A stretch of 41,787 bases of DNA from Acidobacteriota bacterium. Lineage in GTDB: Bacteria; Acidobacteriota; JAAYUB01. Positions 10,796 to 36,194 of this stretch are shown piece by piece (position 1 is the first letter of the stretch; every line of letters starts with the position of its first letter). The notes beneath the pieces were generated by a model. The model did no database searches, was not told the DNA's origin, and was given only the letters and a program-made list of their open reading frames with translations. A program made the position numbers and the translations under genes. The stretch lies in contig JAGOHA010000018.1 of the NCBI GenBank assembly GCA_017996395.1, positions 1 to 41,787 of the forward strand, in the 5' to 3' direction.

Positions 10796-11245
10796 TCAGT
10801 CGAGTTCCGTCCGTATCGCCGCGACCAGCGCCGGAAGGACGGCGGAGCAGGCGGCACTGAGTTCCACGGTGTGTCCCAGCGTGGCGGGTTGCACCCCGAA
10901 GATGACGAGTTCCGGCGGCCAGGCGCCCGTCTGCCGGGCCAGGCCGAGCACGTTGAACAAGCCGGTCTCGTGCAGGGAGAGTCCCCGCTCCGCGCTCAGC
11001 GCCCGAACTTCGTCGGGTTGAAACCGCCGAAACGTCCCCGGTGACTGCCCCATGTCCGCCGCGTCTATAAAGATCACCTTGTCGATGTCTTCCAGGTATT
11101 CGATCAGACCCAGCCCGGCCGTGCCGCCGTCGATCAATTCCACCCGGGGCGGCACTCCGGCCTGCTCCAGCGCCCGGATCGCGTGCACGCCCACACCTTC
11201 ATCGCCAAGCAGCAGGTTGCCCACGCCGATGACCCGGATCCTCAT
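10796..11245 (-). CDS. NiFe hydrogenase maturation endopeptidase (HycI/HoxW/FrxA-like)
   Basis: About 149 aa. The N-terminal GVGNLLLGDEGVGVHAI segment is the hallmark of the hydrogenase maturation protease family; its Glu/Asp in GDEG is a nickel ligand. Further conserved acidic and His positions are in DAADMG and SLHETG. It removes the C-terminal peptide of the large subunit after NiFe centre insertion. The large subunit just upstream does carry a short extension after DPCxxCxxH, as expected for a substrate. Start ATG at 11245, overlapping the hydA stop by 4 nt (ATGA). An upstream in-frame extension to 11290 lies inside hydA and is not credible. Confidence 0.93.
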   Translation of the reverse strand: MRIRVIGVGNLLLGDEGVGVHAIRALEQAGVPPRVELIDGGTAGLGLIEYLEDIDKVIFIDAADMGQSPGTFRRFQPDEVRALSAERGLSLHETGLFNVLGLARQTGAWPPELVIFGVQPATLGHTVELSAACSAVLPALVAAIRTELD

Positions 11246-12546
11246 TCCACGAATTCCACCTTCAGAAAATGCGCGGAACAGGAGATGCACGGATCATAGG
11301 CGCGCACCAGCATCTCGGAAAGCAGGGTGATCTCCTCGGGGCTTTTATCCAGAACCTGCGGCACCAGCGTCCGCATGTCCAGCTCGATGTTGGCCAGGTT
11401 CTGACCCGTCGGGATGATGCAGTTGGCCTTTTCGATCAGACCCTGGTCGTTGAACGTGTAGTCATGGTACAGCACACCCCGGGGCACCTCGGTGGCACCG
11501 ATACCCCGGCCGGCCCGCGGGATCACCTCGATGGGTTCGCGGCGGACGCCCCGCCGCAGCACCTCGTCGATGAGCTCGATCGCGTCCTCGAGGCAGTGCA
11601 GGCACTCCACGACCTGGGCCACCGTGATCATGTAGGCGTTGTGGCACGGGGCCTGGAGACCCAGATCGGCTGCCGCCTGCTTCGCCTCGGGTCGCAACTG
11701 GGCATGGTTGTTGTTGAACCGCGCCAGCGCACCCACCATGAAGCTGTCGCGCTTGACTCTCGCGTGTTTGGCGGACGAGTGGGGGACGATGTGTTCGTTG
11801 GTCATTTTCAGATACTCGCCCACCGGCACCCGGCCGGCGTCGGACGAGAGAATGTCGCCGTTGAGAAATGCATATTCGTCGTCCCGGGTCAGGGAGATGT
11901 ACTCCGTGGGGCGGTTGAACGCGGGAATCTTGTCCCGGACGGACTTGAACAGCTCCACCGTTTCCCGGAAGTCTTCGCGGGCGGCGATGAGGCGTAGTTG
12001 CATTTCCTTCAGTCTCTTGAGATCCGGAACGTTCGTGAATCCGCCCACCGCCATGGACACGGGGTGGACGTGGCGGCCGGCGACCGCCGCGCACAAGTCG
12101 TTGGCGAGCTTCTTGAGCCGGAGCGCCCGCTGCACCACCGGCAGGTGGGAGGCCGCCAGCGGCAGCACGCTGCCCACGCCGAAAAAGTCGGGGGCGGCCA
12201 GGTAGTAAGCATGGAGGACGTGGGACTGCAGGGTTTCGCCGTGAAGGCAGATCTTCCGTAACCGCGAGGTCTGTTCGGTGGGCGTCACCCCCAGAGCTGC
12301 CTCGCTTGCCTGGATCGAGGCACAGGTGTGGCCCACCGAGCAAATGCCGCAGATCCGGCAGCTGATGTGATGCGCCTCATAATAGGGCCGTCCCTTGAGC
12401 ATGGCTTCAAAGAAGCGGGGCGATTCGACGATTTCGAGCTTGCATTCCTCAAGGCGGCCGTCTTTGACGTTGATCCGGATGTTGCCGTGGCCCTCCACGC
12501 GGGTGATGTGGTGGACGTTGACCGTGACGTTGGCATTGCGGCTCAT
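11242..12546 (-). CDS. hydA: NiFe hydrogenase large (alpha) subunit, group 3-type
   Basis: A 434-aa catalytic subunit. The N-terminal NiFe ligand motif R-I-C-G-I-C lies at 64-69 (C66, C69). The C-terminal motif is D418-P-C420-x2-C423-x2-H426, followed by an 8-residue tail (427-434) that the protease next door would remove. The four cysteine ligands are all present. Together with the partner genes in hydB-G-D-A order it matches the cytosolic bifunctional NAD(P)-linked (group 3b, sulfhydrogenase-like) hydrogenases, which couple H2 oxidation or evolution to NAD(P)H. The subgroup is inferred from gene order and subunit make-up. It overlaps hydD and the protease gene by 4 nt on each side. Confidence 0.96.
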   Translation of the reverse strand: MSRNANVTVNVHHITRVEGHGNIRINVKDGRLEECKLEIVESPRFFEAMLKGRPYYEAHHISCRICGICSVGHTCASIQASEAALGVTPTEQTSRLRKICLHGETLQSHVLHAYYLAAPDFFGVGSVLPLAASHLPVVQRALRLKKLANDLCAAVAGRHVHPVSMAVGGFTNVPDLKRLKEMQLRLIAAREDFRETVELFKSVRDKIPAFNRPTEYISLTRDDEYAFLNGDILSSDAGRVPVGEYLKMTNEHIVPHSSAKHARVKRDSFMVGALARFNNNHAQLRPEAKQAAADLGLQAPCHNAYMITVAQVVECLHCLEDAIELIDEVLRRGVRREPIEVIPRAGRGIGATEVPRGVLYHDYTFNDQGLIEKANCIIPTGQNLANIELDMRTLVPQVLDKSPEEITLLSEMLVRAYDPCISCSAHFLKVEFVE

Positions 12547-13340
12547 GGTTTACCCTCTTGCTTGGATTCTGTCAGGGACGGAATGACCGCATCCTGGATC
12601 TTCTCCTGGAACGTCTTGTAACCCAGGAACATCCTCGTTGTCTGGCGGGCTTCTTCGTAGGTCAGGCCGTGTTCGTGCAACACCTCGATCATGTATGGAA
12701 TATTCGGTTGGTCCACCATGCCGCGGCAGGCCACGCAGCTGTCACCGAATTCGGGGCAGATGGCGCCGCAGCCCGCACGGGCGATGGGGCCGAGACAGGT
12801 TTTCCCTTGGGTGTAGAGGCAGACGTTCTCCTTCAACCGGCACTCCACGCAGACGGGGTAGTTGGGCAACGTCGGGGTCTGACCGGTCAGAAGGGCCTTG
12901 ACCACCCGCAGGAACTCACCCCGGTCGATGGGGCAACCGTGCAGGTGGTAATCCACCTTGATGACCCGGTCGATGGGGCGGGTTTCCCAGGTTGGAAAAT
13001 AGTGGGCCTTGTCGCCGTAAACCGTTTGGCGTACTTCGTCCAGGTTGTGAAAATTCTTCAGGCAGTTGATGCCGCCGATGGTGGCGCAGGCGCCGAGGGC
13101 TATCACGATCTGAGCGTTCTCGCGAATTTTCTGCAGGCGGGCCACTTCCTCCTCGCGGGTGCACGACCCTTCGATGAAGGCGATATCGTAGTCGTCCGAG
13201 CGTTCGGTCATGATCTCACGGAAATTGACGATGTCGATGTGCGACACGAGATCCAGAAGTTCGTCTTCGCAATTGGAGACGGTCAGTTGGCACCCTTCGC
13301 AACAGCTGAAATCGAAAAAGGCGACTTTCGGCTTGGCCAT
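12543..13340 (-). CDS. hydD: NiFe hydrogenase small (delta) subunit
   Basis: A 265-aa electron-transfer subunit. The proximal-cluster cysteines are visible in SCCEGC near residues 13-16, GACATIGG near 85 and HGCPID near 137. More cysteines in VECRLKENVCLYTQGKTC, AGCGAICP and CVACRG suggest additional Fe-S clusters, as in group 3 small subunits. No Tat signal peptide, so the enzyme is cytosolic. Its ATG (13340) shares one base with the hydG stop, and its end overlaps the start of hydA by 4 nt. A longer open frame reaching 14549 is an antisense-like extension through hydG in another frame and is not part of the protein. Confidence 0.95.
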   Translation of the reverse strand: MAKPKVAFFDFSCCEGCQLTVSNCEDELLDLVSHIDIVNFREIMTERSDDYDIAFIEGSCTREEEVARLQKIRENAQIVIALGACATIGGINCLKNFHNLDEVRQTVYGDKAHYFPTWETRPIDRVIKVDYHLHGCPIDRGEFLRVVKALLTGQTPTLPNYPVCVECRLKENVCLYTQGKTCLGPIARAGCGAICPEFGDSCVACRGMVDQPNIPYMIEVLHEHGLTYEEARQTTRMFLGYKTFQEKIQDAVIPSLTESKQEGKP

Positions 13341-14164
13341 CAGATTGCCTCCTCGAGTTTGGTGACTTCCGGGTAGCAAAAGACGGGACCCTTCTGGCAG
13401 ACGTACACGTTGTTGATCTGGCAATGGCCGCACTTGCCCAGCCCGCATTTCATCCGTCGTTCGAGCGACAGGTAAATATTTTGCTGGGGGACGCTCCGGG
13501 CCAGCAACTCCAGCAGCACATACTTGTACATGATCGGCGGGCCGCAGACCGCCGCCACGGTTCGTTTCGGGTCGAACTCCATTTTCGGGAAAAGCGTGGT
13601 GATGACTCCGACGTGCCCGCTCCAGCCGGCCTGCGGCGCGCGGTCCACCGTGATGTAGAAGTCGATGTCCCGGCGGTTGGTCCACTCGGCCAGCTCGTCC
13701 TTGAACAGCAGATCGGCCGGAGTCTTGGCGCCGAACATGATGATGACCCGCCCAAAGGCCAGGCGGTCTTCCAAGACGGCGTGGATGAGCGAGCGGAGCG
13801 GCACGAGACCGATGCCGCCGGCCACGAACAGGACGTCGCGGTCCCGGAACGCGTCCAGGGTGAAGCCGTTGCCGTAAGGGCCGCGGATGGTCACCCTGTC
13901 GCCGACTTTGTGCTGGTGCAGCAGGTTGGTGAAGTTGCCCACCTTCCGGACCACCAGGTCGAAGCTCTCTTTGCGATTTGGGGACGAGCTGATGGAAATG
14001 GGCGCCTCGCCCACGCCGTAGATGCCGACTTCGACGAACTGCCCCGGCTTGTGTCCCAGGGGCGCCTTGTCCGGCAGTTCCAGCTCGAACAGTTTCTCCA
14101 ACTCGGTCTCCTGGCGGATCCGCTTGATGGTGGCCCATTGCGGCAGATAGGGCGACTGGCTCAT
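13340..14164 (-). CDS. hydG: Hydrogenase gamma subunit, FAD/NAD(P)-binding oxidoreductase
   Basis: A 274-aa ferredoxin-NADP reductase-like flavoprotein. The FAD-binding barrel is at about 10-100 (APISISSSP flavin motif near 55, RGPYGNGF near 94). The NAD(P)-binding domain follows, with VAGGIGLVPLRSL near 114 and CGPPIMYKY near 211. A C-terminal 2Fe-2S cluster region has CGLGKCGHC and a further Cys. This is the dihydroorotate dehydrogenase electron-transfer subunit / sulfhydrogenase gamma family, and it links the hydrogenase module to NAD(P)H. It overlaps hydB by 4 nt. Confidence 0.94.
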   Translation of the reverse strand: MSQSPYLPQWATIKRIRQETELEKLFELELPDKAPLGHKPGQFVEVGIYGVGEAPISISSSPNRKESFDLVVRKVGNFTNLLHQHKVGDRVTIRGPYGNGFTLDAFRDRDVLFVAGGIGLVPLRSLIHAVLEDRLAFGRVIIMFGAKTPADLLFKDELAEWTNRRDIDFYITVDRAPQAGWSGHVGVITTLFPKMEFDPKRTVAAVCGPPIMYKYVLLELLARSVPQQNIYLSLERRMKCGLGKCGHCQINNVYVCQKGPVFCYPEVTKLEEAI

Positions 14165-15213
14165 CGCGCGCCTCCTTGGGGGCTCTTTTCCGCGAAATGG
14201 TTGACGGTGTCAACGACGCTGATGTGCACGAGGCAGCTGCGGACGCACCGTCCGCAGGCGACGCAGAACGTCTTCTTGTACCGGATGACGGGGTAGAGAA
14301 ACTTGCGATAGAAACGATGGCGGTTTCGGTCGCTGCGGTGCTCGCGGAAGTTTTCGCCGCTGCCCACCAGGGCAAAATCCTCGAGCTGGCAGCCGTCCCA
14401 CACCCGCTCTCGCTCGCCCCGCTTGAGGCTGGCAATGTCGACGTGATCCTGCACGTCGAAGCAGTAACAGGTGGGACACACAAGGTTGCAGGCGCCGCAG
14501 GACAGACAACGCTGTCCCAGTTCCTCCCAGATCCCATCGTGGTACTCACCGCCGAACAGCAGCGGGAGATGCTCCACGTCGGTCCGGACGGCGATTTTTT
14601 GGCTGGCGGCTTTCTTGTCGTACCACTCGCCGACTGCCTTCACCGCCGTGTCCACGATCGGCACGGTGCGGGCGTAAGCATCGAGGGCGGTTTGCCCTTT
14701 GGGCGATCCGATCTCCACGGCATACCCCTCGCCGATATCCGTGAGAAACAGGTCGAAGCTGTTGTCGGGCGGCCGGATGGTGCCCATGCTCGCGCAGAAG
14801 CACTGGTCGTCCGGCATGCAGTTGACGCCGATGATCAGAGCGGCGTTGCGCTTTTCCAGATAATTCGGATCCGGATTTTCGTCCTGGAACACCATGTCCA
14901 GGCGCTGGATGCCGTGGAGGTCGCACGGGTGGACCCCGACAAGTGCCAGCGGCTGCCGTTCCACCACCGGAACGATCGTCGGCTGGTCCGCTGACAGGTC
15001 AAACCTCAGGAGCGTTTCGCGCTGGGGGAAAAAGAACTTCTTGGGCGGCAGAATGGTGTGGACGTAGTCCATCCGCAGGAGGGAGTAATCGTCCAACGGG
15101 GCGAAGGTGAACTGCCCCGGCTCCTTCTCAACAGGTCCGACCAGATGAAAATCCCGGGCCATCTTTTCCAGGAAGTCGGTGAAATCTTTCTTCGCGATCA
15201 ACCGATATGGCAT
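14161..15213 (-). CDS. hydB: Hydrogenase beta subunit, 4Fe-4S protein
   Basis: A 350-aa sulfhydrogenase beta-type (anaerobic sulfite reductase A-like) subunit. The long N-terminal region includes VGVHPCDLHGI and a Cys-containing NCMPDDQCFC segment. The C-terminus holds two ferredoxin-like 4Fe-4S motifs, CLSCGACNLVCPTCYC near 237 and CVACGRCVRSC near 318. It carries electrons between the small subunit clusters and the gamma flavin. It is the first gene of the hydrogenase operon, with GGAGG upstream of the ATG at 15213. Confidence 0.94.
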   Translation of the reverse strand: MPYRLIAKKDFTDFLEKMARDFHLVGPVEKEPGQFTFAPLDDYSLLRMDYVHTILPPKKFFFPQRETLLRFDLSADQPTIVPVVERQPLALVGVHPCDLHGIQRLDMVFQDENPDPNYLEKRNAALIIGVNCMPDDQCFCASMGTIRPPDNSFDLFLTDIGEGYAVEIGSPKGQTALDAYARTVPIVDTAVKAVGEWYDKKAASQKIAVRTDVEHLPLLFGGEYHDGIWEELGQRCLSCGACNLVCPTCYCFDVQDHVDIASLKRGERERVWDGCQLEDFALVGSGENFREHRSDRNRHRFYRKFLYPVIRYKKTFCVACGRCVRSCLVHISVVDTVNHFAEKSPQGGAR

Positions 15214-30976: not shown

Positions 30977-32362
30977 TCATGCCACCGGTGGAAACTGGAT
31001 CTGGGCGATCTTTTCGGCCATGTCGTGGGCCGGACTGAACGCCAGCTCGGCGGTGGCGATCCGGCTGGTCCGCAGGCGCAGCTCGGCGGTCTCGCCCAGG
31101 GGGACGCCGTCGGCGTAGGCCGTCACGGGGCGCTTGACGGGTTCCAGGGCGCGGAAGACCACCTGGCTGTCGAGGGCGAGCATCACCGCCTTCCAGCCGG
31201 GCGGCTCCAGCACGTTGGAGCCCACGAGCACCAGCGCCGGTGTTTCGAACAGCACGGGCGTGGCGCCCATGGCGCGGGCGTAGGCGGTGGAACCGGCGGC
31301 GGTGGCCAGCAAGATACCGTCGCCCATCAACCGGGGGATCCGGATTTCCCCCCCCACCCGGACCTCCACCCAGGCGGTCTGGCCGGTGCACCGCTCCACC
31401 CAGGCGTCGTTGAACGCCAGCACGCCGGTGGTGACCCGGCCGCCGGGCGCCACCGCCTCCACATGCAGGAGCGGGGCCTGGCGGACCACCAGCGGCCCGG
31501 ACGGCCAGCCGGCGGCAAAATCGGCGGCGCCGCTCAGCAGAAACCCGCGGTGACCGGTGTTGATGCCGATGAACGGCAGACGCTCGCGCCAGTGGCGGCG
31601 GATGGCGTGGAGCATGGTCCCGTCGCCGCCCACCACGAGGATGCAGTTGGGCGGGCTCGCAGGTTCGGTGCCGGCAAGGCGGGCGGCGAGTTCGCCGGCC
31701 TGCGGATTGGACTCATCCACGACCAGTAGCGGCCGGGGCGGGTCCAGCCGCAGCGGCGCCGTGCGCACCGGAGGCCGGCCGCGGTAGAGTCCGTAGCGGT
31801 CGATGTATTCGGCCACCCGGGGGTCCAGCCGATCGGTGACCGGTTCGTGGCGAAACAGGCGTTCGCGGACGTCGGCGCTGGACCCGGCGAGGTTCAGGTC
31901 GAAGAGGCGGGATCGGGGCGGCCGGTCGAGAGGGATGAGCGGATGGCCGGGCCGGGTGAACACGGCGAACCGCAGCTCCTGCCAGAGCGCCTCGCCGCGG
32001 GACCACCGCGTCTGGATGAAGGAGCGGCCTGCGCTCCCGCCGCCGACGAGGTCGCCGCCCACCACGTGCCACACCTCCCCCTCGGCGGCATAGCGGGTTT
32101 CCAGGTCGTGGTTGCGGGTGAACGTGCCTTCCTCGAGATCGAACAGATCCACGCGGACGTTGGCCAGCCCGCGAAACGCCATGTCAGCCATGGCCGCCCG
32201 ATGAATGGGTTCCACGTCCTGCATGGACGGCTTGTCGGGTCGCGGTCCCGAGGGGACCACCACGACGCGATCGAACTGCCGGCTGAGCGCCTCGGCGATC
32301 GCCCGGTGATGCTGACCGGGCGGATTGAACGCGCCGCCGAACACGGCGATGGTGGGACACAT
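30977..32362 (-). CDS. nadD/nadK: Fusion protein: NadD-like adenylyltransferase domain plus NAD kinase domain
   Basis: A 461-aa two-domain protein. Residues 1-194 are a nucleotidyltransferase of the nicotinate-mononucleotide adenylyltransferase type: GGAFNPPGQHH at 9-19, WHVVGGDLV near 98, AGSSADVRER near 159 and a C-terminal YIDRYGLYRG. After a proline-rich linker (about 195-209), residues 210-461 form an ATP-NAD kinase with GGDGT (245-249), FIGINTGHRGFLL and ATAAGSTAYARAMG. It could carry out NaMN to NaAD and NAD to NADP, two steps separated by NAD synthetase. The adenylyltransferase HxGH motif is altered (G-Q-H-H), so that domain may be weakened. Start ATG 32362 with GGGAGG upstream; no in-frame stop or frameshift separates the domains. 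Confidence 0.92.
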   Translation of the reverse strand: MCPTIAVFGGAFNPPGQHHRAIAEALSRQFDRVVVVPSGPRPDKPSMQDVEPIHRAAMADMAFRGLANVRVDLFDLEEGTFTRNHDLETRYAAEGEVWHVVGGDLVGGGSAGRSFIQTRWSRGEALWQELRFAVFTRPGHPLIPLDRPPRSRLFDLNLAGSSADVRERLFRHEPVTDRLDPRVAEYIDRYGLYRGRPPVRTAPLRLDPPRPLLVVDESNPQAGELAARLAGTEPASPPNCILVVGGDGTMLHAIRRHWRERLPFIGINTGHRGFLLSGAADFAAGWPSGPLVVRQAPLLHVEAVAPGGRVTTGVLAFNDAWVERCTGQTAWVEVRVGGEIRIPRLMGDGILLATAAGSTAYARAMGATPVLFETPALVLVGSNVLEPPGWKAVMLALDSQVVFRALEPVKRPVTAYADGVPLGETAELRLRTSRIATAELAFSPAHDMAEKIAQIQFPPVA

Positions 32363-32403
32363 CGTAGACCTCCCCGCGTTTGGCAAGGTGAGACGACTCC
32401 ATT

Positions 32404-33129
32404 TCAGCACAAAGTCGGGTCAGGCACAACTGGGGGTTGTGGTGACGGCGGCGCAGAACCGCGCTCACCGCGGGACCGGCCCGTTGCCGGCTCACGGTAC
32501 AGTCCGGCGCGACGGCAGATGGCCAGGATGTCCGGGGCGACGAATCGGCGCAGCGCCGCATCGTCGGCCCCGGCGACAGCCAGCGCGCGGATCCGGGTGG
32601 AGGAGATGTCGCGCACCGCGGCGGGCACCCGAATCCGCCCGGCGGCGTCGCCCGACCGGCCGAACGCCATCACCCGGCGGCTCAACCGGGCGAGCCGGCC
32701 GGCGTCCGCCGCCGTCCATGGCAGTCCGAGCCGGGCGAAGTACTCCGGGGAGCGGAGCAACCGCCGCCACGTGTCGTCACCCATGGCGAAGGTGATCGCC
32801 GCGTCGGGGAAGAGCGCCGCCAGCTCGTCGGCCAGCCGCACGAACAACGCCTCGCGCGTCACGCCGCCCAGGACGCGGCCGCCGGAGCGCTCCGAGAGCC
32901 GGGCGATCATGGCCAGGCGCTGGGTGAAGGTGGCGTTGACCGGCCAGACGGGGTGCTTGTCGAAATGGCGGAGCGGCACCAGCAGCAGGACGCGGTTGCA
33001 CCGACGGAGGAGTTGGCGCACCATCCACTCGTGCCCGCGGTGCAGCGGGTCGAACGACCCGACGATCACGCCCAGGGTGCGCGTCCGGCGGGCGTCCTCA
33101 GTCAGGTTGGCGATGGTCACACGGTGCAT
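32404..33129 (-). CDS. NadD-like nicotinate/nicotinamide mononucleotide adenylyltransferase
   Basis: A 241-aa nucleotidyltransferase with intact catalytic motifs: GSFDPLHRGH at 24-33 (H30 and H33) and ISSTRIR near 175. The FAMGDDTWRRLL segment matches the NadD GAD region. It likely adenylates nicotinate (or nicotinamide) mononucleotide; because the superfamily is broad, another mononucleotide substrate is possible. The C-terminal ~25 residues are a low-complexity tail. Start ATG 33129, 3 nt after the stop of the radical SAM gene. The NadD-NadK fusion follows 41 nt downstream. Two adenylyltransferase domains in one operon is unusual and suggests different substrates or a catalytic/regulatory split. 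Confidence 0.87.
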   Translation of the reverse strand: MHRVTIANLTEDARRTRTLGVIVGSFDPLHRGHEWMVRQLLRRCNRVLLLVPLRHFDKHPVWPVNATFTQRLAMIARLSERSGGRVLGGVTREALFVRLADELAALFPDAAITFAMGDDTWRRLLRSPEYFARLGLPWTAADAGRLARLSRRVMAFGRSGDAAGRIRVPAAVRDISSTRIRALAVAGADDAALRRFVAPDILAICRRAGLYREPATGRSRGERGSAPPSPQPPVVPDPTLC

Positions 33130-33132
33130 GGC

Positions 33133-33855
33133 TCACCCCGCGAGGCGGTATTCCCGGCTGATGGTCCCGTCGCTGAACAAGTTGAGGCACCGCAGGGTGG
33201 AACGCGCGAAGTCCCAGACGGTCACTTCAAGTCCGTCCACGTCATAGACGGGATTGCCGGCGAACAGCCGAACCGGCGCGCAGCCCGGGAAGAAGTCCTC
33301 GGGCTGCGTCTCGCCGTACAGCCGGCGCAGGACCAGGCGCCGGACGGCCAGCTCCTGACAGCGACTGATGATTTCGGAAATCTCCCGCCGGTTGTCCGGT
33401 GTGACGAGTGTGGAGATCTTGATGGGAATCACCGCCCGGCGCAGGATGGCCGCCAGGTCCGGCCCGCCGTTGCAGCCGGTCATGCGGCGGATCGTCTCCG
33501 GCCGGAACGACGGGATGGAAACCGTGGCCCGGTCATAGCGGTTGAATATATCAATCTTGTCCAGCACCAGCCGGCCGTTGGTATGCAGCGACACCCGCAC
33601 GCCGGGCAGGCGGTCACGCAGCCGGTCCAGGAGGGCGGCCTCGTGTGGGTAGAGCTGGGGGTCGGTGTTGGTGCCGGTGAGTGAGATCTCCCGGATCCCC
33701 TCGTGGACCAGCAGATCCAGGAATGGTTCGAGGTTGAGGAGGGGGAAGCGGTCGAGATTGTCCGGCAGCACCCGGGCGGCCAGGGTCCGGCCGATGCAGT
33801 GGGGGCACCGCTGGTTGCAGGGCCCGGTCAGGAGGATGTTGGCGAAGCGGTCCAT
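33133..33855 (-). CDS. Radical SAM protein of unknown substrate
   Basis: A 240-aa minimal radical SAM enzyme. The 4Fe-4S motif C-x3-C-x2-C is at C13, C17 and C20 (CNQRCPHC). The SAM-binding region is SLTGTNTDPQLYP near 57, and RVSLHTNGRLVLDK follows near 85. The fold matches MoaA/activase-like short radical SAM proteins. There is no SPASM or B12 domain, but three further cysteines (GCNGG, PGCAP, RCLNLFSDG) could take part in catalysis. I chose ATG 33855, 7 nt after AGGAGG; ATG 33861, which overlaps the upstream stop by 4 nt, is the alternative. It lies within the putative NAD operon, so the substrate may be linked to pyridine nucleotide metabolism, but that is inference. Confidence 0.9.
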   Translation of the reverse strand: MDRFANILLTGPCNQRCPHCIGRTLAARVLPDNLDRFPLLNLEPFLDLLVHEGIREISLTGTNTDPQLYPHEAALLDRLRDRLPGVRVSLHTNGRLVLDKIDIFNRYDRATVSIPSFRPETIRRMTGCNGGPDLAAILRRAVIPIKISTLVTPDNRREISEIISRCQELAVRRLVLRRLYGETQPEDFFPGCAPVRLFAGNPVYDVDGLEVTVWDFARSTLRCLNLFSDGTISREYRLAG

Positions 33856-33857
33856 GG

Positions 33858-35297
33858 TCATTCCTCCTCCAGGCCCAGCAGATGGGCCTGGACGCGCGGC
33901 GAGTAGAAGAGGGCGATGACGCCGTTGAACGCCGCGGCGCCCGCCGGGGTCAGGCGCAGGACCGGTCCGTGGTACTCCATCAAGCCGCGCGCGAGCACGA
34001 AGGCGATCGCTTCGGGGAAGCACGCCTCGAGGGGACGCCCGAAGGCGTGCCTAAACGCTTCGCGGTGGATCTGGCCGAAGTAGAACGAGACGGCGATCAT
34101 CTTGGCCATGCCCTCGCTGGGTGGGAGGTGGTAGAGGTCTTGCAGCGGCAGCCGGCCGGCGGCGACGGCGTCCAGGTAGGGCCCCATCGTCTTCGTGGCG
34201 GCGCCGAGGTTGTATCCCAGAACGGTGTTGGTGAAGGTCTGGGCGCCGAGCCCCAGGCCCAGATAGGGCGTGCTCCAGACCACGCGCTCGGTGAGGTAGC
34301 GGCTGGTGCCGGGATCATCCGGGATCCGGCTGAAGGCGTTCTTGCCCGGGTTGGCGGCGTAGCCCGCCGCCAGCAGCAGCTCGCGGGCGGTGTGGTACAT
34401 CGCGTTGATGCGGTCCAGGTCCACCTGCCCGGCTTCGCCGGCGACGCGGGTGCCCTTGTAGCGCATGCGGTACAGCGTGATGTAGTCGGGGGCCAAGTCG
34501 ATGGCGTACCGGACGCTGGCCGCAAAATCGTCGACGGTCTGGTGGGCGAAACCGTACATCAGGTCGATGTTGAAGGCCCGAAAGCCGGCCCGGCGGATTT
34601 GGTCGGCGGCGAGCCGGTTGTAACCCGCCTGGTCGCGCGCGTAGGCCCGCAGGAGTTCGGGATTCACCGTCTGCAGGCCCATGCTGATCCGTTCGAACCC
34701 CAGGGCGTGCACCGCTGCCAGCCGGTCGGGATCCAGGGCGGCGATCTTGGGGGTCGTCTCGATGCTCATGGCGAAACCGGCGGCCAGCGGAAAAGCCCTC
34801 AGGATCCGGTCCAGCACGGCGCCGATGCGCGCCGGCCGGGCCAGGAGCGGCGTGCCGCCGCCCACGTCCAGGCCGGCCAGCTCGTGGGCGCCGGGATCCA
34901 GAAGTTCGAGGTACAATTCGACTTCTCGCTCCAGCGCCGCGAAATAAGCCGCTTCGGCCGCGTCGTCGTGCCGCTCGAGAACGGTGTACTCGCAGAACGC
35001 GCAGCGCCGCTCGCAGAAGGGGACGTGGACGTAGAGGCAGAGGCGCGGCCCGGCAAGCGCCCGGCGCAGGAGGTTCCGGTGCCGCTCCGGATCCTGGCGG
35101 AAGGGCCAGATGGTCTTCCGATGGGCGATGGGATAGGCGGTGTTCGCCAGATGATGGTGCCGCTGCCCGGCGGCGAAGACGGCGGCCGGATCGGGACGCT
35201 CGAGTTCGGGCTCGGGCATCCAGAGCAGGGGATGTTCGCCGCACACGGGACGCGGGTGTTTCTTCCGATCGTTCTGGATGCGGGTGATGGGTGTCAT
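33858..35297 (-). CDS. HemW/HemN-like radical SAM protein
   Basis: A 479-aa protein of the coproporphyrinogen-dehydrogenase-like radical SAM group. A ~85-residue N-terminal extension precedes CERRCAFCEY (C95, C99, C102). GGGTP lies near 146, SIETTPK near 176, ISMGLQT near 205 and NIDLMYG near 247, and a HemN-type C-terminal domain has LGLGLGAQTF and NPGKNAFSRIP. The extra Phe-Cys (CxFC) is as in HemN/HemW. HemW is a haem chaperone and HemN an oxidase; the long N-terminal extension and the operon context argue against a plain housekeeping version. Start ATG 35297 with AAGGAGG upstream. It is the first gene of the operon, divergent from nrtR. Confidence 0.88.
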   Translation of the reverse strand: MTPITRIQNDRKKHPRPVCGEHPLLWMPEPELERPDPAAVFAAGQRHHHLANTAYPIAHRKTIWPFRQDPERHRNLLRRALAGPRLCLYVHVPFCERRCAFCEYTVLERHDDAAEAAYFAALEREVELYLELLDPGAHELAGLDVGGGTPLLARPARIGAVLDRILRAFPLAAGFAMSIETTPKIAALDPDRLAAVHALGFERISMGLQTVNPELLRAYARDQAGYNRLAADQIRRAGFRAFNIDLMYGFAHQTVDDFAASVRYAIDLAPDYITLYRMRYKGTRVAGEAGQVDLDRINAMYHTARELLLAAGYAANPGKNAFSRIPDDPGTSRYLTERVVWSTPYLGLGLGAQTFTNTVLGYNLGAATKTMGPYLDAVAAGRLPLQDLYHLPPSEGMAKMIAVSFYFGQIHREAFRHAFGRPLEACFPEAIAFVLARGLMEYHGPVLRLTPAGAAAFNGVIALFYSPRVQAHLLGLEEE

Positions 35298-35318
35298 GTC
35301 GGCCTCCTTTATGGTTTT

Positions 35319-35347
35319 ATTTTATTTCAATATTATTAGTTTGTGAA
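35319..35347 (-). promoter_or_regulatory. Candidate promoter of the radical SAM / NAD operon
   Basis: On the minus strand, TTCACA (35342-35347) and TAAAAT (35319-35324) are separated by 17 bp, about 22 nt before the first start codon. The region is strikingly AT-rich compared with its surroundings, and a TATTAGTTTG element overlaps the -35. Confidence 0.45.
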
Positions 35348-35404
35348 GGTCAAATTTATCTCAGCCGGTAAAATAAAATTGAACAGAAAACGAATAATAG
35401 TTTG
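35334..35404. repeat. Direct repeat in the nrtR intergenic region
   Basis: TATTAGTTTG (35334-35343) and TAATAGTTTG (35395-35404) differ at one position and lie 61 bp apart between the divergent operon and nrtR. These are possible regulator half-sites, but the region's AT-richness weakens the case. Confidence 0.3.
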
Positions 35405-35449
35405 ATATATAAGGATATAAAACGACACGGCTTTGATGATGCGAAGGGG

Positions 35450-35478
35450 TTGACCGCTCGACTGGTTTTCTATAAAAT
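35450..35478 (+). promoter_or_regulatory. Candidate promoter of nrtR
   Basis: TTGACC (35450-35455) and TAAAAT (35473-35478) are separated by 17 bp. The start codon at 35508 lies about 30 nt downstream of the -10, a normal distance. Confidence 0.6.
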
Positions 35479-35507
35479 TAACAAAAGCCGTAGAGTTGGG
35501 GGTGCAG

Positions 35508-36194
35508 ATGAACCGGAACGTGTTGGAGCGGCCCGTCGTGGCGGTGGACGTGGTGGCGCTGCGGGCCGGTGGCGGGCGGCTGGAGGTGCTCCTGGTCCGG
35601 CGGGCGGACGAGCCGTTTGCCGGTGCCGAAGCCCTTCCGGGGGTGGCGCTGCGTGCGGACGAACCGCTGGAGTCCGCGGCCGTCCGGGCGCTTGTGGACA
35701 AGGCGGCATGCACCACGCCGGCGGCCGAGAGCCTGTACATGGAACAGCTGGCCACGTTCGGCGCCCTGTACCGGGATCCGCGTGGCCGCACCGTGAGCGT
35801 CGCCTACCTGGCGCTGGCACGCGAGGGCGTTCTGACACCGGGCCGCGGCCGCTGGGCGGCGGCGGCCGGCTCAGCCAACCGGGCATTGCCGTTCGACCAC
35901 GAGGCGATCGTGGCCGCCGCCGAGTCCCGGCTGAAGGGGAAACTGCGCTATACCAACATCGCCCGGCACCTGCTGCCGCCGGAGTTCCGGATCGAGGAGC
36001 TGCAGGCGGTCTATGAAGCGGTGTTGGGCTGGAAGGTGAACAAGACCAATTTCCGCAGCCTGATGCTGCAGCGCGGGCTCATCGAGCGTGTGAGGATTCT
36101 GGCTGAGGCGGTGGGCCGGCGGGGCGGGCGCCCGCCCCACCTGTATCGGTTTACGGGGGATCGTGTCGCTGCGGAGGACCGGGACTTCCTCTAG
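35508..36194 (+). CDS. nrtR: NrtR-type transcriptional regulator (Nudix-like sensor plus winged helix)
   Basis: A 228-aa protein. Residues about 8-150 are a Nudix-hydrolase-like domain (VVAVDVVALRAGGGRLEVLLVRR). Its Nudix box is degenerate: the usual REL-x-EE glutamates are replaced in AVRALVDKA, as expected for an ADP-ribose sensor without catalysis. Residues about 150-225 form the NrtR winged helix-turn-helix (LPPEFRIEELQAVYEAVLGWKVNKTNFRSLML). NrtR proteins repress NAD biosynthesis or salvage genes and release DNA on binding ADP-ribose, a signal of NAD turnover. The adjacent divergent operon with adenylyltransferase and NAD kinase genes fits this role. Start ATG 35508 with GGGGGTG upstream. 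Confidence 0.9.
   Translation: MNRNVLERPVVAVDVVALRAGGGRLEVLLVRRADEPFAGAEALPGVALRADEPLESAAVRALVDKAACTTPAAESLYMEQLATFGALYRDPRGRTVSVAYLALAREGVLTPGRGRWAAAAGSANRALPFDHEAIVAAAESRLKGKLRYTNIARHLLPPEFRIEELQAVYEAVLGWKVNKTNFRSLMLQRGLIERVRILAEAVGRRGGRPPHLYRFTGDRVAAEDRDFL

Follow-up and report, generated by a model that had tools for sequence, protein, structure and literature searches.

NrtR regulons that govern NAD metabolism (SoNrtR type) are the closest described counterparts of the locus considered here; the same regulator family includes a sugar-sensing branch, AraR, which responds to arabinose (PMC4666351). As in these systems, the locus encodes a regulator composed of a catalytically impaired Nudix-like domain and a winged helix, and the regulator gene is divergent to the NAD genes (or, in other cases, heads them). 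Unlike in the known regulons, two radical SAM genes and a NadD–NadK fusion are part of the gene set, the regulation being predicted from the sequence. The individual enzymes also have described relatives, namely, NadD and NadK (PRK00071/TIGR00482 and PRK04761 type, respectively), the HemN-fold proteins, including the STM4012 family and the class C methylases NocN and NosN, and, for the shorter radical SAM protein, MoaA and prokaryotic viperin, which act on nucleoside triphosphates. To our knowledge, no HemN-fold radical SAM enzyme has been established in NAD metabolism, and the few papers found do not contradict this.

The analyzed window, i.e., the whole stretch of 41,787 nucleotides of an Acidobacteriota contig, comes from a draft assembly that is 91% complete, and contains the following features.

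29747 to about 30835, minus strand: family-2 glycosyltransferase, possible downstream member of the operon (no terminator between)
30977-32362, minus strand: NadD–NadK fusion P0001, 461 aa (Pfam/NCBIfam, PDB matches, homologues, alignment)
32404-33129, minus strand: second HIGH-type nucleotidyltransferase P0002, NadD-like (Pfam CTP_transf_like, 33 bits; genus-limited)
33133-33855, minus strand: short radical SAM protein P0003, 240 aa, with CNQRCPHC (profiles; genus-limited)
33858-35297, minus strand: HemN-fold radical SAM protein P0004, 479 aa, with CERRCAFCEY (profiles, trees, residue mapping)
35298-35507: divergent intergenic region (three-genome alignment, promoter scan)
35508-36194, plus strand: NrtR-family regulator P0005, 228 aa, degenerate Nudix domain and winged helix (profiles, alignment)

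The four minus-strand genes, from the fusion to P0004, are spaced by 41, 3, and 2 nt, and the Pfam domains (NAD_kinase and CTP_transf_like in P0001, CTP_transf_like in P0002, Radical_SAM in P0003 and P0004, NUDIX and NrtR_WHD in P0005), together with the open reading frames, agree with the layout given in the initial annotation, in which these genes lie divergent to a Nudix/winged-helix gene. The five genes are colinear in two further genomes of the same genus (three genomes in total, 88–98% identity), and all five are under purifying selection, with dN/dS in same-genus comparisons ranging from 0.10 to 0.40: 0.10–0.12 for the fusion, 0.13–0.18 for the regulator, about 0.2 for both radical SAM genes, and 0.29–0.40 for the second adenylyltransferase. 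Thus, these are real genes. Among the collections searched, the complete five-gene set occurs in a single genus only. In each of the three genomes, the glycosyltransferase gene comes directly after the fusion; within the window, no terminator was detected between these two genes or inside the operon, so that the transcript may extend into the glycosyltransferase, whose function is probably unrelated to that of the operon.

We suggest, with about an even chance of being right, that the locus is an accessory NAD(P) operon under a divergent NrtR-type repressor, with the radical SAM enzymes acting on a metabolite pool linked to NAD(P). The initial annotation had placed the whole operon in NAD(P) metabolism; this placement holds strongly for the fusion, due to the NadK and NadE fusions described below, and moderately for P0004, due to its NrtR and NAD neighbors, whereas P0003 and P0002 are attached to it only by their position.

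The NAD-kinase domain of the fusion retains the GGDGT, ND, and GSTAY motifs and is assigned to NadK by its score with PF01513 (35.6 bits, cut-off 25.5). The fusion thus keeps both nucleotidyltransferase and NAD-kinase motifs, but differs from the described NadD and NadK proteins in being fused, in being additional to the housekeeping copies, and in its nucleotidyltransferase signature: P0001 carries G-x-H-H and GSSADVR instead of HxGH and ISSTxxR. Throughout the fusion family, Gly (Ser in one member) takes the place of the first His of HxGH, and two positions on, His usually replaces Gly. Against TIGR00482 the protein scores 55.3 bits, below the cut-off of 112 and hence outside that family; judging by the fusion context, it would still work like NadD.

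Full-length homologues of the fusion (50–57%) are present in four further acidobacterial genomes, which represent three families, and in two acidobacterial genomes the same NadD type is joined C-terminally to glutamine-dependent NAD synthetase (NadE); one genome, G345, carries both the NadE–NadD and the NadD–NadK fusions. The two NadE–NadD fusions (L095, 7006-9573, 855 aa; L096, 7118-9577, 819 aa) both have the G/S-x-H-H type of NadD. As this NadD type is fused both to NadE and to NadK, the domain can be placed in NAD(P) synthesis, and the comparison of homologues provides good support for the fusion as a genuine NAD(P) enzyme family. The repeated joining of this NadD type to NadE and NadK orders the route to NADP. 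An ordinary NadK is encoded in every fusion-bearing genome, and an ordinary NadD in all but one of them; the exception is G266, in which the search revealed no canonical NadD, so that the fused domain is the only NadD candidate found there. The genome from which the window was taken has an ordinary NadD beside rsfS, as well as an ordinary NadK and CoaD, and the copies in the operon are therefore accessory.

The second nucleotidyltransferase is closer to NadD in its motifs (GSFDPLHRGH and DISSTRIR, with HRGH and ISSTRIR kept, and a NadD-like C-terminal GLYR), but not in its score with TIGR00482, 22.2 bits against the cut-off of 112, which leaves it outside the family as well. None of the profile searches fixes its substrate, its AF2 model is weak (pLDDT 54) and has Foldseek matches to generic nucleotidyltransferases (PanC/CoaD/NadD), and no orthologue outside the genus was found in the collections searched.

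The relatives of P0004 moderately support a link of this protein to NAD metabolism. In a search of 396 acidobacterial genomes, the best relative of P0004 from outside the genus (218 bits, the next one 165) was that of G315, a member of another acidobacterial family, where it is the last gene of a tight same-strand array, NrtR–pncA–pncB–nadE–nadM–RfbH-like–radical SAM, nadM being of the nadM-Nudix type; the radical SAM gene is absent from a sister species of G315. Among 72,556 plasmid records, the best relative (168 bits, the next about 122) is encoded on a Prevotella plasmid, after a short MoaA-like radical SAM gene and downstream of genes for an ADP-ribosylglycohydrolase and an NrtR-type regulator; the regulator gene and the radical SAM pair are separated by four genes. 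The NrtR link of this plasmid is weakened by the location of related regulators within arabinose operons on plasmids of Bacteroidota, and, as P0003 and the short Prevotella protein P0008 are only weakly similar, the two loci are not proven to carry the same pair. In maximum-likelihood trees with a small background set, the three lineages (the genus, G315, and Prevotella), all on long branches, form one group with support 100/98, apart from HemW, HemN, STM4012, and another acidobacterial group. No match to any of these radical SAM proteins was found within about 8 kb of any of 37 other acidobacterial NrtR loci, and viral contigs and phages yielded either ordinary HemN/HemW relatives or nothing. 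Taken together, the supported clade near NrtR-type genes and the zero count among background loci make a chance association unlikely.

The initial annotation had staked the linkage on co-occurrence beyond this genome. Such co-occurrence is observed for P0004, in the G315 NAD operon and, less convincingly, on the Prevotella plasmid; for P0003, no orthologue outside the genus was found in the collections searched. The fusion has homologues in four other acidobacterial genomes but without the radical SAM genes; near these homologues, matches to the remaining four genes of the operon are likewise absent.

Two observations concern the neighbors of these relatives. The RfbH-like DegT-family (PLP) enzyme encoded directly before the radical SAM gene in the NrtR-headed NAD salvage operon (L119, 10354-11502, minus strand) has His at the position where, presumably, the catalytic Lys would be expected. 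The Prevotella cluster (L101, 2701-9152) comprises genes for ADP-ribosylglycohydrolase, an NrtR-type regulator whose Nudix box is intact, two DUF1810 proteins, a 291-aa uncharacterized protein, and two radical SAM proteins.

The same data bear on the main alternative, which we consider appreciable, though distinctly less probable than the accessory operon: a plain NADP-supply operon formed by the fusion, the NadD paralogue, and NrtR, in which the radical SAM genes are merely co-transcribed and serve an unrelated purpose, e.g., protein modification or the synthesis of a natural product, specific to the genus. It would account for the occurrence of the fusion without radical SAM genes elsewhere, for the restriction of P0003 and P0002 to the genus, and for the glycosyltransferase gene that also lies downstream. 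It does not fit well with the closest relatives of P0004 being near NrtR-type genes in two independent searches, compared with none of the 37 background loci, nor with the 2–3 nt junctions and the position of the adenylyltransferase gene between the fusion and the radical SAM genes.

P0003, the shorter radical SAM protein, is most similar to MoaA (39.9 bits) and prokaryotic viperin, both weakly; with the viperin profile NF038283 it scores 23.4 bits, far from the cut-off of 180, and is thus not classed as a viperin. It has the radical SAM core in common with these families, but stays far below their cut-offs and has a shorter C-terminal part. STM4011 was considered as a relative and rejected. 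The AF2 model (pLDDT 38) is unusable. Given the substrates of MoaA and viperin, this resemblance weakly favors a nucleotide as the substrate of P0003.

Another conceivable reading is an ADP-ribose conflict or repair module, in which the regulator would sense ADP-ribose released by toxin or phage ADP-ribosylation, the fusion would rebuild NADP, and the radical SAM enzymes would make a viperin-style nucleotide analogue. In line with this scenario, an ADP-ribosylglycohydrolase gene lies beside the Prevotella NrtR, both short radical SAM proteins (P0003 and P0008) have weak viperin-profile matches, and Nudix-type regulators are known from ADP-ribose-linked immune systems (PMC9503650). On the other hand, the viperin matches are weak and exceeded by those to MoaA in NCBIfam, PADLOC has no match for the operon proteins other than P0003, the operon is vertically stable within the genus, and the G315 relative resides among ordinary salvage genes; hence, we regard this scenario as improbable.

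The regulator fits the NrtR domain definition, with both PF21906 (53.4 bits) and PF00293 above their cut-offs. The degenerate Nudix box noticed in the initial annotation is borne out by the alignment: the Gly of GX5E is replaced by Val, REUXEE reads RALVDK, and the catalytic glutamates are lost. With 120.7 bits against the cut-off of 400, P0005 is below the NCBIfam equivalog NF050029 (ADP-ribose-NrtR), and among PDB entries it matches AraR of Bacteroides best (87.7 bits, compared with 75.7 for the ADP-ribose NrtR). One could thus suppose that it is an AraR-like sensor of a sugar, such as the arabinose to which AraR answers, or a sensor of something else, and that its control is only seemingly linked to NAD. 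We find this very unlikely, since homologues of NadD and NadK are among the putatively regulated genes, the operon has no sugar-catabolism genes, and P0005 shows greater similarity to the regulator at the head of the G315 NAD operon (38% identity by BLAST, 45% by MAFFT); due to this last similarity, ADP-ribose would be the likely ligand. Many other acidobacterial NrtR-type ORFs (L162-L185, e.g., L166, 8960-9823) align to the G315 regulator in two pieces, separated by a segment between the Nudix part and the winged helix that does not align.

The divergent region (210 nt) contains promoter-like sites on both strands, at 35347-35319 on the minus strand and 35450-35478 on the plus strand; the promoter scan yielded three sites, compared with 0.4 expected. 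In the three-genome alignment these sites are largely conserved, and so are AT-rich stretches. An operator search by inverted repeats revealed no element common to all three genomes.

Returning to P0004, its best profile is that of the STM4012 family (NF006067), with 184.3 bits against the cut-off of 380, and it belongs neither to this family, which is also defined by STM4011 and STM4013–4015 neighbors, nor to HemN (TIGR00538, 134.4 bits, cut-off 325), of which it lacks the fourth Cys (CERRCAFCEY compared with CxxxCxxCxC). The "HemW-like" identity proposed initially did not stand and is reduced to a resemblance at the superfamily level. HemW binds haem by the HNxxYW motif (PMC11834973); this motif is present in both HemW controls (Escherichia coli and Paenibacillus) and absent from P0004 and from P0009 and P0016, which belong to the same clade, and, with a score of 108.8 bits (TIGR00539, cut-off 205) and a position in a separate clade, P0004 was rejected as HemW. 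A haem or Fe–S status control, with a HemW-like haem chaperone or sensor setting the NADP supply, would draw on the same superfamily resemblance to HemW and HemN, but hardly survives the lack of both HNxxYW and the fourth HemN-type Cys and the grouping of P0004 outside both families.

P0004 is instead probably a member of a new NrtR-linked subfamily of HemN-fold radical SAM proteins with a predicted nucleotide or pyridine-type substrate. Its second SAM site can be compared with that of NocN, formed by Tyr34, Tyr96, Arg153, Asp196, and Ser225 (PMC12871812). Three of these five residues, Tyr34, Arg153, and Asp196, are retained as Tyr89, Arg203, and Asp245, respectively, while Tyr96 is replaced by Asp, and Ser225 by Thr; the counterpart of NocN Tyr276 is Ala, in a part of the alignment that is uncertain. 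Similarity to the STM4012 family, NocN, and NosN thus comprises the HemN fold (by sequence), CxxxCxxC, and the Tyr, Arg, and Asp of the second SAM site; unlike them, P0004 falls in a separate NrtR-linked clade, with two of five residues of this site changed. Two-SAM, class-C-like chemistry is possible.

In the accessory NAD(P) operon suggested above, the repressor would bind at 35298-35507 and be released when ADP-ribose or a related product of NAD turnover rises; the fusion would then convert NaMN or NMN to the dinucleotide and phosphorylate NAD to NADP, while the second nucleotidyltransferase would activate a related mononucleotide. P0004 and the MoaA/viperin-like P0003 would carry out radical reactions, their target being a nucleotide or an aromatic (pyridine-type) group connected with the same pool, P0004 possibly using two SAM molecules. 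A more specific version, unlikely in our estimate, is that the operon makes a carbon-modified pyridine nucleotide or dinucleotide (e.g., ring-methylated or otherwise radical-altered): P0004 would attack a non-nucleophilic sp2 carbon using two SAM molecules, P0002 would make the dinucleotide, and NrtR would couple the output to NAD turnover. If the linkage holds, a subfamily of HemN-fold radical SAM proteins belongs to NAD metabolism, and the operon gives candidates for an NAD-linked metabolite. The occurrence of a P0004 relative in an unrelated NAD-salvage operon hints at a so far undescribed NAD-linked reaction.

Elsewhere in the window (10796-15213, minus strand), there is a [NiFe] hydrogenase cluster resembling the NAD(P)-linked group 3 hydrogenases, with genes for a maturation-protease-like protein, the large subunit, an NAD/FAD-binding subunit, and a 4Fe-4S subunit.
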